Made by a program: the position numbers and the translations under genes. From contig PERY01000002.1 in NCBI GenBank assembly GCA_002929055.1, forward strand, positions 124,001 through 188,000: a stretch of DNA of 64,000 bases, read 5' to 3'. Shown here in pieces: positions 25,955-29,299 of the stretch. Source of the DNA: Methylocystis sp. GTDB lineage: Bacteria; Pseudomonadota; Alphaproteobacteria; Rhizobiales; Beijerinckiaceae. The notes under the pieces were generated by a model, which saw only the letters and a list, made by a program, of their open reading frames with translations, ran no database searches and was not told where the DNA came from. Each line of letters opens with the position of its first letter. Position 1 is the stretch's first letter.

Positions 25955-28900
25955 TCAGTATTGGCCGGCGAGCGAGGATTCGAGCAGGGCGATCTCTTCG
26001 CCCGTGAGGTCGAAAAGCCCGTAGACGATGGCGTCGATCTCTTTCTCCGCGGCTTCTATCTCGCCTGTCAGCGAGAGAACGCGCGCGCGGTTCCCGGCGA
26101 GATAGGCCTCCCACTCGCCGCGCTCCTTCAGCGGAATGTCGGCGCGAAAGGCTTGTTTCAGCGCGGCGCGGAAGGCCGCGAAGTCGAGCTCGTGCCAGTC
26201 TTCCAGCTTGCCGGTGAGCTTGCGCCGCTCGGGCGGCGCAAGATCGAGAATGCGGCGGCGCACGGCGGATTGAATCTCGAAACGCTCGCGCGCGGCGTTG
26301 GTGCAGGCCTCGCCGAGGGCCGCGAGCTTTTTGCGCGCGGGCGCGGGCATGGCCGGGATGGGGAGGGTTTCGACGTATTGCACCCTTAGCTCGCGCCATT
26401 GGTCTCGAACCGCTGGAGCAAGCCCAATGATAACAAACCAGAGCACTGCAGAATTGAGCACCGCAAGGAGGACAAAATCCGCCTGCGGGATGAAATAGGT
26501 CTTATCATTGGAAAAAACCTTGCTTTGATCGAGAGCGAAAATTCGATCTTGGGCAAAATGGCCGTAGATGATTTTTTGTGTTTCAAACTTCGGCTGATAC
26601 GCCAACTGCGCCTGCTGCAACTCCCACCATTCCTGCTTCGTCGCGCGCTTCTCCAGTTCGGGTTTGAACGGCAGCAGCCAGTCGCGGATCGCCGGATATG
26701 TCTCGATGTCGACCTTGCCCTTCGGCGTGTTGATGAGCCACAGACCCTGCGGCTCGACGCGCCAGCGCTTGACGTCCTCGCCGCGCAGAAAGGGCTTCAG
26801 CAGCTCCGCCGATTTTCTGTCCGCCTTCACCAGCCGGTCCCGCGTCGGCGCATCGATGATGAAGGCCTCGTTAAATCCGGTCTTGATGCCGTAAAGCGGC
26901 GCCCCGTAGACCTCGCCCAGCGTCTTGCGTCCGCCCGCGATCTTGTCGCGCAGCTTCGCAAGCGGCTCCTCCTCGAAGCGCCAGGAGCCTGCGGTCAGGC
27001 GCGAGAGGGGCATACGCCTCGCCCCTTCGTCGAAAACGCGGCCCAGCTCCTGCGGAATATCGTCGACGACGAGAAAGGAAAGCTCGGCGGCGGACGCGGT
27101 TTCCTCATCCTGAGGAGCCTGCGCAGCAGGCGTCTCGAAGGACGAGGAAACCTTTGCCTTGCTCACCCTCGTGCTTCGAGACGCCGCCTTCGGCAGCTCC
27201 TCAGCATGAGGGTGAGGGTGTAAGCCCAAGCCCTTGCGCAGCGTCAGGATCGCCGGATAGGTCGTCACGCCCTCGAAAATCTGCAAATCGCCGAAATCGA
27301 CGACGGTCTCGACGCAAACGCCATCGGTCAGGAATTTGCGCAGGTTCTCGCCCGAGCCGGTACGGAAAAACGTCGATGACGAAATGAAGCCGAGCCGTCC
27401 GCCCTGTTTCAACAGCCCCACGCCGCGCTCGAAAAAGTATGCGTAGAGATCGGCCCGGTCGGCGGCGACGACATAATGCTTTTCGAGCCAGGGTTTGACC
27501 GGCTTGATGAACTCCATCCGCACATAGGGCGGATTGCCGATCACGATGTCGAAGCCGCCCTTCTCGAAGACCTGCGGGAAAGCGGTGCGCCAGTCGAAGG
27601 GGCGCGCGGTGTAGTCCTTGTCCTCGATCAGGCTGTCGCCCGCCCGGATCGTGCTTTCGAGATTTTGCAGTCGATGGTCGCGCCGCGCCGTCTTCAGCCA
27701 CAGCGAGAGCCGCGTGATCTCGACCGACTCGGCGTTGAGATCGACGCCGAAAAGATTCTTCGTGACGATCTCGTCGAAAATGTCGAAGTCGATTTCCTCG
27801 CCCAGCGCCGCCAGCGCGGCGGCCGCGCTGCGGTATTCCGCAGCGAGCACGTCGAAGGCCGCGACGAGGAACGCGCCGGAGCCGCAGGCGGGATCGACAA
27901 TGGTGAAGCCGCGCAGCATGGCGAGATGCGCGCGCCAGAAGGCGAGATGATTGGCCTCGCTCTGCGCGCAGCCAAGCGCCGCCCATCCAGCGTCGAATCT
28001 TTCACGCAACGTCGACCCGATCGTCTTCTCGACGAGAAACCGCGTCACCATGTCGGGCGTATAGACGACGCCCTCGCGCTTGCGCTTGCCGACAGGCGGC
28101 GGCGCCTCGCCGCGGCCCTCGGCCTTGAGGCGCTCGATGTCGGTGATCGACTGCTCGAAGATGTGGCCGAGAATGGTGACGGGAACTTCGCGACGATAAT
28201 CCCATTTCCCGAGCTCCACCACCTCGTTCGCAAGAGCGTCGGGAAGGGTCAGCGAGTCCGCGACGGGATCATGCGCAAAAAGCCCGCCATTGTAGGGCCA
28301 GATGTTGAGGCGCGTGTTGCCCTCGTCCACCGCCCGGAAGAGCGTTGCGAAATTCTTCCATACCGGCTCCGGGTTGAACTCGTTGCGCGACTCGGCGGCG
28401 CGCTCCAGCACGCGGCTCGGCAAGAGATCGGTGCGCTGCGCAAAGGCGATGAAAAGAATGCGGTCGAGAATCTTCTGCGCCGGCTCGATCGCCGCAAGAG
28501 CCGGAAGCTTTGGCCCGTCGGCCGAATTGACGATGAACGCGATCAGACGGTCGCGCAGGTCCTTGTATTCGACGTAAAGGCGCTGCGTCACGTCCTTGTA
28601 GGCGCTGTCGGTTTCGCGCAGCAGCGCGTCCGTCCCGCCGCCGAGCAATTGCTGAGCGGAGAGAATGAGCCAGAGCCGCGCATGCTCCTCGGGCTCGTCC
28701 AGCCGCGTGAGATCGAACAGCTCATATGCGTCCCGCCCGCGACCGAAGCCATAGAGGCGAATTTCCAGGCAATTGGAGACGAGCACCCATCGGGCGCCCG
28801 GAGCGTCCATCGCGTATTCCCACGCCTGCTGCACGGGACTGCGTCCGCGCCCGGGCATGGGCGCGTCCAGATCGGTCGTTCTCGGCCCCTTGAACTCGAA

Positions 28901-29299
28901 GGGCGCGGCGATCTCGTTTATCCCGCCGGCGTCATCGAACCTCCCGAGCGCGACATCCACCCTGCCGTGCCGGATGGGACGCTCGAAGGCGAGCGAATAG
29001 ACGGCGTCCGGATCGGCGGTCTTGTAGCCGAGAATCTTTTCCAGAATCGCCGAAAAGAAAATTGGACGAACCGCCTCTTCTTTCAACTTCCCGAAGTTTT
29101 TCCTCGCCTTGCGGGCATATTCAGCGGCCGCTTCCACCTGCTCAGGCGTCGGCGCGAAGGCGGCCTTGCCCCGGGCTTCGACGACGACCTTGTGTGCGAA
29201 GAGCGGGGTCCGCAGGGAACGCGGCGCGCCAATTCTGGCCCGCGCACCCTCCTTGCCGCTCGTCGGCAAATCCATTCCTGCGGTTGCGAAGAGATCCAT
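25955..29299 (-). CDS. Type IIG restriction-modification enzyme (Eco57I-like)
   Basis: 1114 residues combining nuclease, methyltransferase and specificity parts. Residues 115-137 hold a PD-(D/E)xK-type site (VDVAL...PFEFKG, with D115, E135, K137). The gamma-class N6-adenine methyltransferase follows: YTPDMVTRFLV at 413-423, DPACGSGAFL at 469-478 (SAM binding) and NPPYVRMEF at 589-597 (catalytic NPPY). The C-terminal third has TaqI-like recognition-domain features (GIKTGFNEAF, FLRGEDVKRW). One chain would both cut and methylate; no separate subunits are nearby. Residues about 692-738 come from a palindromic repeat inserted in frame. The recognition site cannot be read from sequence. Confidence 0.9.
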   Translation of the reverse strand: MDLFATAGMDLPTSGKEGARARIGAPRSLRTPLFAHKVVVEARGKAAFAPTPEQVEAAAEYARKARKNFGKLKEEAVRPIFFSAILEKILGYKTADPDAVYSLAFERPIRHGRVDVALGRFDDAGGINEIAAPFEFKGPRTTDLDAPMPGRGRSPVQQAWEYAMDAPGARWVLVSNCLEIRLYGFGRGRDAYELFDLTRLDEPEEHARLWLILSAQQLLGGGTDALLRETDSAYKDVTQRLYVEYKDLRDRLIAFIVNSADGPKLPALAAIEPAQKILDRILFIAFAQRTDLLPSRVLERAAESRNEFNPEPVWKNFATLFRAVDEGNTRLNIWPYNGGLFAHDPVADSLTLPDALANEVVELGKWDYRREVPVTILGHIFEQSITDIERLKAEGRGEAPPPVGKRKREGVVYTPDMVTRFLVEKTIGSTLRERFDAGWAALGCAQSEANHLAFWRAHLAMLRGFTIVDPACGSGAFLVAAFDVLAAEYRSAAAALAALGEEIDFDIFDEIVTKNLFGVDLNAESVEITRLSLWLKTARRDHRLQNLESTIRAGDSLIEDKDYTARPFDWRTAFPQVFEKGGFDIVIGNPPYVRMEFIKPVKPWLEKHYVVAADRADLYAYFFERGVGLLKQGGRLGFISSSTFFRTGSGENLRKFLTDGVCVETVVDFGDLQIFEGVTTYPAILTLRKGLGLHPHPHAEELPKAASRSTRVSKAKVSSSFETPAAQAPQDEETASAAELSFLVVDDIPQELGRVFDEGARRMPLSRLTAGSWRFEEEPLAKLRDKIAGGRKTLGEVYGAPLYGIKTGFNEAFIIDAPTRDRLVKADRKSAELLKPFLRGEDVKRWRVEPQGLWLINTPKGKVDIETYPAIRDWLLPFKPELEKRATKQEWWELQQAQLAYQPKFETQKIIYGHFAQDRIFALDQSKVFSNDKTYFIPQADFVLLAVLNSAVLWFVIIGLAPAVRDQWRELRVQYVETLPIPAMPAPARKKLAALGEACTNAARERFEIQSAVRRRILDLAPPERRKLTGKLEDWHELDFAAFRAALKQAFRADIPLKERGEWEAYLAGNRARVLSLTGEIEAAEKEIDAIVYGLFDLTGEEIALLESSLAGQY
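27101..27217. repeat. RIME-like palindromic repeat pair inside the type IIG gene
   Basis: Two related units in opposite orientation: CCTCATCCTGAGGAGC...GCGTCTCGAAGGACGAGG (27103-27147) and CCTCGTGCTTCGAGACGC...GCTCCTCAGCATGAGGGTG (27167-27215). This is the type of palindrome usually found between genes in Hyphomicrobiales. Here it lies inside an open reading frame and adds about 45 codons without a stop or frameshift, in the spacer after the methyltransferase core. Confidence 0.85.

Follow-up and report, generated by a model that had tools for sequence, protein, structure and literature searches.

Inverted REP pairs in open frame within type IIG restriction enzyme genes: a probable passenger of a recurrent acceptor loop

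Background

REPs that lie inside genes have been described before. The GTAG- and CGTC-tagged REPs treated in the main text of Di Nocera et al. 2013 (PMC3733652) are mostly intergenic, often stand as inverted dimers and in some cases fall within ORFs. Intragenic copies are reported there to add 20-30 residues or more, and flexible linkers are suggested as tolerant sites. The recB genes of two Xanthomonas species carry different REPs at about one site, which, as far as that text describes it, is a precedent for the recurrence that we report below at a type IIG loop (PMC3733652). The main text of that source thus already covers in-gene REPs, their dimers and the tolerance of linkers. Its stress is on repair and replication genes, and the words 'restriction', 'methylase' and 'methyltransferase' do not occur in the main text (PMC3733652).

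Two other kinds of element come close. The palindromic elements of Rickettsia (RPE), in the form in which they are cited in PMC3733652 and PMC2759123, resemble our case as palindromes that stand in frame inside alphaproteobacterial genes. Small enterobacterial repeats in coding regions are likened to miniature transposable elements in the main text of Delihas 2007 (PMC2759123). The repeats in that text are RU units of 103-168 bp, unlike the REP considered here, and the words restriction and methyltransferase are absent from it.

In open-licence PMC text we found no publication that joins REPs with type IIG enzymes. Measured against that body of text, the newer part of what follows is that type IIG enzymes are repeated hosts with an acceptor loop and that hairpin-level turnover goes on within coding sequence. 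In-gene REPs are usually catalogued one at a time. The two enzyme families treated here have relatives with filled, half-filled, multiple and empty sites, which makes the fate of a palindrome that is read as protein measurable.

A REP pair inside a type IIG gene

The window is the whole stretch of DNA that was analysed (64 kb). Its genome, called G000 here, comprises 3.0 Mb and is 89.4% complete; the other G numbers stand for genomes of the same genus, 39 in all. The features of the locus are collected in Table 1.

Table 1. Positions in the window of the type IIG gene, its motifs and the inserted REP pair
Feature	Position	Strand	Remarks
Type IIG (Eco57I/MmeI-like) restriction enzyme-methyltransferase gene	25955..29299	-	Uninterrupted ORF, 1114 aa
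Candidate PD-(D/E)XK nuclease residues D115, E135, K137	28889..28957	-	Conservation of 90% or more among 63 sequences
DPACGSG, residues 469-475	27875..27895	-	Invariant in 63-sequence alignment
NPPY, residues 589-592	27524..27535	-	Invariant in 63-sequence alignment
Inserted segment, residues 694-735	27095..27220	-	Insertion relative to the other 83 homolog rows; pLDDT below 50
REP unit 1, first in gene	27167..27211	-	CCTCATGCT...AGCACGAGG type, inner stem CTGCC/GGCGG
Short spacer between extended hairpins	27153..27161	-	Hairpins 27098-27152 and 27162-27216
REP unit 2, inverted	27103..27147	+	CCTCATCCT...AGGACGAGG type, inner stem CCTGC/GCAGG

The two arms of the pair, 45 nt each and 82% complementary, stand head to head 19 nt apart, with a total span of 27098-27216. 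Each arm is a hairpin in itself, with stems at 27098-27111/27139-27152 and 27162-27175/27203-27216. The ORF runs through the pair without interruption and its translation there reads 'PHAEELPKAASRSTRVSKAKVSSSFETPAAQAPQDEE'. This is the single copy of the element detected within the window. It lengthens the spacer of the protein to 54 aa against the usual 11-18 aa, which amounts to about 42 added residues. The first-pass annotation had seen an inverted repeat pair in frame inside a type IIG gene, and its estimate of about 45 extra residues was close. In the ortholog of G001 (L002), REP unit 2 is the only unit seen.

With many dispersed copies, mostly intergenic, and inverted pairs, the element has the properties of a REP/BIME. 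The REP pattern has 10 matches in G000, against 0 for a reversed control pattern. BLAST in the same genome gives eight clear places including the window copy (match rows were merged by us), and the other seven lie between coding-like ORFs or at their edges, as expected by the first-pass annotation for a repeat that is normally intergenic. A short half-copy (C6:1773-1794) stands directly behind a second type IIG gene of G000. Across the genus the element was matched in 31 of the 39 genomes, G000 included. An Rfam search at E up to 1 returned three weak matches, whose scores fall far short of the gathering thresholds.

Compared with the GTAG and CGTC REPs of PMC3733652, as its main text presents them, the window unit of 45 nt has a bulged stem and neither tag. 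A CGTC-tagged REP is defined there by a terminal unpaired CGTC, a stem of 8-9 bp, a loop of 4-5 nt and a CCA-like tail. We rejected this class for the window repeat, whose 45-nt arm begins with CCTC, ends with GAGG in a paired stem and has an inner loop of 3 nt. A GTAG-tagged REP mobilised by RAYT was rejected as well: the arm ends without GTAG, and G000 is without a match to PF01797.

The repeat in open frame, together with homologues whose site is empty, also makes the element RPE-like at the level of sequence, and the likeness to the Rickettsia palindromes drawn in the first-pass annotation is well chosen to that extent. A difference from RPE is that repeats of the window family lie mostly outside genes, the few in-gene copies being nearly all in one enzyme class.

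The host enzyme

The window protein joins an N6-methyltransferase core and a target-recognition domain in one chain and is a type IIG enzyme by its Pfam matches (Eco57I, 2.3e-45; N6_Mtase; MmeI_Mtase; TaqI_C, 1.3e-10) and its PADLOC match (REase_MTase_IIG, 2.8e-117). We take DPACGSG to be methyltransferase motif I and NPPY to be motif IV, while D115, E135 and K137 presumably form a candidate PD-(D/E)XK nuclease motif.

An AlphaFold2 model, made from an alignment of 63 of the 84 sequences followed in the window gene's family (family 1), has a mean pLDDT of 86.4. Values below 50 occur at residues 1-27 and 694-735 only, the insert being the sole such internal segment. In the model the insert stands at the turn of a beta-hairpin, with a strand at 682-689 before it and one at 739-744 after it. 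Along the chain it follows the methyltransferase match and precedes the TaqI_C specificity match. The best 50 Foldseek matches of the model include CamA, M.BseCI, MmeI (5hr4), BrxX/PglX, BpuSI (3s1s) and DrdV. The predicted fold is thus like that of the type IIG and IIL enzymes MmeI, BpuSI and DrdV, from which the window protein would differ by a disordered turn of 42 residues without a confident fold. That the position is tolerant of insertion, as the first-pass annotation supposed, is in line with this predicted turn behind the methyltransferase core.

Could the repeat have been an early disabling insertion in a gene that is now decaying? Signs of decay do occur among the relatives, since the second-family gene of G010 (see below) is split between ORFs and several family-1 homologs have shortened ORFs, for example L143 with 760 aa and L152 with 818 aa. 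The window ORF, in contrast, is full-length with intact core motifs. Compared with L002, an 80% ortholog, it has a pN of 0.119 and a pS of 0.546 over the whole gene, which gives a pN/pS of about 0.22 (0.16 up to residue 690), and the repeat of G001 also lies inside an uninterrupted ORF. We regard decay as very unlikely. Judged by its gene, the window protein is presumably made and active.

The hypothesis

We consider it quite likely that the REP dimer is a tolerated passenger in a recurrent acceptor loop of a selected type IIG enzyme. A REP dimer of a family dispersed over the genus would have entered the beta-hairpin turn behind the methyltransferase core. One open frame of the dimer matches that of the gene, and the dimer would be translated as a disordered loop that leaves the fold intact, with the enzyme still under selection around the insert. 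Without selection as protein, the insert would go on as a REP, with paired stems, inner-stem exchange, loss and gain of units and tandem copies. The turn would be a recurrent acceptor, since three seemingly unrelated palindromic families have entered it in three lineages, and another type IIG family carries the window-type repeat at a point that appears to be equivalent.

Filled and empty sites in the family of the window gene

Family 1 was followed in 84 homolog rows, namely the window gene, three relatives from the genus or order and the best 80 of 182 relatives (L003/L166 and L004/L158 are duplicate sequences). The spacer after the strand 'YPAILTLRK' measures 11-18 aa in 80 of the 84 rows. 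Long spacers belong to the window gene (54 aa), L002 (37 aa), L141 (52 aa) and L174 (36 aa). The rows with a short spacer uphold the reading of the segment as an insertion that was proposed in the first-pass annotation, and the outcome that would have refuted it, an equivalent segment of unrelated DNA in all homologues, did not occur.

All rows were scanned for insertions, 10 aa or longer, in columns that few rows occupy, and those beyond residue 30 that lie short of the C-terminus were considered further. N-terminal extensions, such as those at residue 21 in L121 (29 aa) and L155 (25 aa), were set aside for their uncertain start sites, as was a C-terminal piece of L163 that contains unread bases. 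Six proteins have internal insertions of at least 24 aa in one place, and all six have palindromic DNA there. They are the window protein and L002, which share a site, L141, L174, L176 (residue 864) and L134 (residue 447), the last counted although its insertion consists of two neighbouring pieces of 22 and 26 aa. Other rows have insertions of 10-17 aa at residues 332-890, a size below that of the palindrome check.

Two further lineages have taken up other palindromic repeats in this loop. The insert of L141, from a Gallionella MAG, is a pair that is CGTC-tagged by eye and has 50 match rows in its own genome. The insert of L174, from a Gallionellaceae MAG, is a pair that is GTAG-tagged by eye; it is weaker as a dispersed repeat because it has only 3 match rows, confined to about 2 kb (match rows for L141, L174 and L176 count both strands and the insert itself). 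Both hosts are gallionellaceans and their repeats differ. A single turn accounts for three of the five inferred independent events (P 0.004 under a uniform spread along the protein, 0.011 over loop residues, in a test chosen post hoc that rests on five events and counts shared ancestry once).

Three side observations belong here. The GTAG-like match rows of L174 (5095-5256, and about 1.2-1.7 kb downstream) all lie inside the type IIG gene or a short way behind it, as though this gene had brought them along. A Methylococcales type IIG ortholog (L176:5367-5480) has a 38-aa insert at residue 864, and the repeat there has 68 match rows in its genome. Finally, in a Methylocystis MAG ortholog that is 77% identical (L134:4384-4498), the spacer of the main loop is short and a REP pair stands in frame at residue 447. 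The pair is of the same REP family as that in the window gene, in another loop. With arms of 43 nt, it is partly read in a frame other than that of the window copy.

A second type IIG family

The second family (family 2) is represented by the L012 protein, which matches REase_MTase_IIG in PADLOC and MmeI domains in Pfam. Its relatives occur in 21 of the 39 genus genomes (E up to 1e-10), some of them distant, and 12 relatives were aligned. The REP site is directly behind 'VRVSIVCF'. One repeat pair occupies it in G029, G004, G001 and G026; the gene of G030 has a pair and one extra unit; the site is empty in G024, G032, G025 and G021, and a fragment in G028 stops before it. A further pair, CGTC-tagged by eye, lies downstream of the site in G029, G004, G001, G026 and G000, with its arms swapped between G029 and G000 (L184, where the pair is in frame).

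Two members of the family deserve separate mention. The gene of G010 (L186, on C6) has five REP units in frame, four of them in tandem and forward and the fifth inverted, and its N-terminal part lies in another ORF. The second type IIG gene of the window genome itself, which is MmeI-like (L184, G000:C6:1486-6333), has a shrunken REP remnant after 'VRVSIVCF'.

When natural empty-site proteins of both families were compared by hhalign, they aligned with a probability of 99.95 and the insertion points came near each other. Since the alignment is gappy in that stretch, equivalence of the two points is likely, short of proven.

The repeat continues to pair as a hairpin

For the in-gene arms, 20 of 23 could be set in one register (16 of them distinct), one 46-nt and two 43-nt arms being excluded. 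In these, 97.8% of cells are paired compared with 84.5% in shuffled sets, and covariation is 0.313 compared with 0.087; neither value was reached in 500 shuffles, and slid partners gave at most 0.051. Pairs changed on both sides numbered 5 against 4.6 in shuffled sets (342/500), and further pair types 10 against 8.9 (115/500), so that these controls were not exceeded. The two measures, out of five, that do not beat the shuffles are those which the tool rates least affected by relatedness, and relatedness could therefore carry part of the pairing signal. With this limit on two of the five measures, the hairpin is kept through paired changes, as in a REP/BIME.

The in-gene arms hardly vary in their outer parts, and the two sides of the inner stem are replaced together. 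In G026, for instance, GCTGC/GCAGC stands against GCCCC/GGGGC, and in G001 CCGCC/GGCGG stands against CGAGC/GCTCG. Of the 264 intergenic arms found, 212 measure 45 nt, and every one of the seven base pairs tested is kept in 207-212 of these. Orthologous intergenic places allowed 146 arm comparisons, in which the inner stem is identical 77 times, exchanged 42 times (both sides altered in at least two pairs) and otherwise changed 27 times; the comparisons come from 126 pairs, same-locus pairs excluded, which are non-independent as genomes recur in many of them. To judge from these comparisons, stem exchange in the genes resembles that of the intergenic copies.

This pattern has several possible sources. 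Template-switch correction would produce it, as would a constraint on the hairpin or replacement by other copies, and the three are inseparable in these data.

Is the inserted peptide selected as protein?

If the repeat-encoded peptide had come to serve the enzyme, perhaps as a flexible linker that sets the distance or timing between methyltransferase and target recognition, this would be a true domestication. The position of the insert between the methyltransferase and TaqI_C matches would suit such a linker. That both type IIG families keep it in frame, and that genomes whose genes differ by a pS near 0.3-0.5 have it in common, would also be in keeping with such a role.

The substitution pattern within the repeats argues otherwise. 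Six pairs from G029, G004, G001 and G026 could be compared in family 2. Outside the repeats their pN is 0.032-0.069 and their pS 0.288-0.366. Inside repeat 1 the corresponding values are 0.024-0.142 and 0.036-0.152, and inside repeat 2 they are 0-0.070 and 0.043-0.154. In repeat 1, then, pN is about equal to pS and its codons appear to have no protection as protein; in repeat 2, with few sites, the two differ little. Residues vary freely upon stem exchange, unit number ranges from none to five among second-family relatives, and the family-1 spacer is short in all rows except four. We think domestication quite unlikely, and the word 'domesticated' in the first-pass annotation lacks support: in family 2, for which rates are measurable, the inserted residues of four genomes show pN close to pS while the hairpin stays paired.

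In the window gene itself, compared with G001, 20 repeat codons are comparable, with a pN of 0.089 and 0 synonymous changes in 15.2 sites. Protein-level selection on the insert may act there, as far as so few codons can tell. A family-1 arm of G001 without synonymous change would fit recent replacement and DNA-level constraint alike. Similarly, both family-2 repeats diverge less than the flanking synonymous sites, and this low pS is compatible with recent replacement from other copies and with constraint.

From pN close to pS in the family-2 repeat, together with kept pairing and exchanged stems, we infer that a tolerant loop lets the element live on as a hairpin. In the cases measured no protein-level constraint is seen, the hairpin is kept, and tolerance is found where the fold is open.

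Why the same loop, and how far the repeat spreads

Recurrence might also be mechanistic, if this DNA site is a preferred one for the machinery that mobilises REPs or for recombination at repeats already present. Family 1 has three entries into the loop, family 2 has insertions at a similar point, and the tandem units of G010 and G030 suggest local recombination. As for the machinery, 8 of the 39 genus genomes have a Y1 transposase (PF01797) over the cut-off, and 6 of these 8 carry the repeat. The repeat is present all the same in 25 of the 31 genomes without an over-cut-off match, among them G000, in which (at 89.4% completeness) PF01797 found no match, and G003 has four Y1 transposase matches and no match to the repeat. 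Among the 39 genomes no clear link between transposase and repeat was seen. The repeats that entered the loop, moreover, look unrelated in sequence. We regard a target preference as unlikely; recurrence in the passenger hypothesis would be due to survival in tolerant loops rather than to targeting.

A bolder extension can be entertained, to which we give somewhat less than even chances. Type IIG enzymes would then be a general refuge for REPs. Across proteobacteria, at least three unrelated palindromic families would have converged on the turn behind the methyltransferase core as their acceptor. Within the gene the repeats would stay active by stem swap, arm exchange and multiplication with the frame kept, so that a coding sequence would evolve by hairpin rules and one enzyme would occur naturally with a series of different linker lengths. 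Should the acceptor loop prove general, restriction enzymes would have in REPs a natural supply of linkers that differ in length.

How often does the repeat enter proteins at all? The genus search scored part of the candidates in each genome and ranked places by similarity to the window element, which favours close copies, and the counts of places are those among the matches listed. They comprise 152 places: 117 further listed ones, 29 loci (L070-L098) and the six type IIG places, of which two are in family 1 (G000 and G001) and four in family 2 (G030, G029, G026 and G004). A copy was accepted as in a gene if the frame was open for 40 codons on each side and the codon score exceeded 0.1 on both flanks. 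One of the 146 non-enzyme places examined (144 with enough flank on both sides) qualified. In-frame copies in genes thus make up 7 of the 152 places among the matches listed, 6 of the 7 in type IIG enzymes, and by our reading these six go back to about two insertion events. The suggestion of the first-pass annotation that such repeats can spread into proteins holds in that the spread occurs, and on the listed places it is narrow.

The codon-score screen recovers 7 of 9 known in-gene clusters, L012 and L186 scoring below 0.1. A stricter cut-off flagged the window gene and L002 only, missing L134 and the second family. A GC-position screen of 36 loci, with no known in-gene copy among them, flagged none, and L030, one more listed place, was not coding-like by that screen, the only one applied to it.

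Does the repeat lend itself to being read? In 104 dimers outside the known in-gene cases a mean of 1.98 of 6 frames are open, compared with 2.06 in shuffled sequence, and by length modulo 3 the dimers divide into three classes of 28, 33 and 43. Since its frames are open no more often than in shuffled sequence and its lengths cover all classes, the repeat is not built for reading. The in-gene copies are presumably those that fitted the frame by chance.

The one qualifying copy outside the type IIG enzymes (L293, G009:C1:3965239-3968361, minus strand) is in cobN, a cobaltochelatase gene (PF02514, 1.5e-132), where the REP pair stands in open frame before 'ATIVFYRSLYLADDTAP'.
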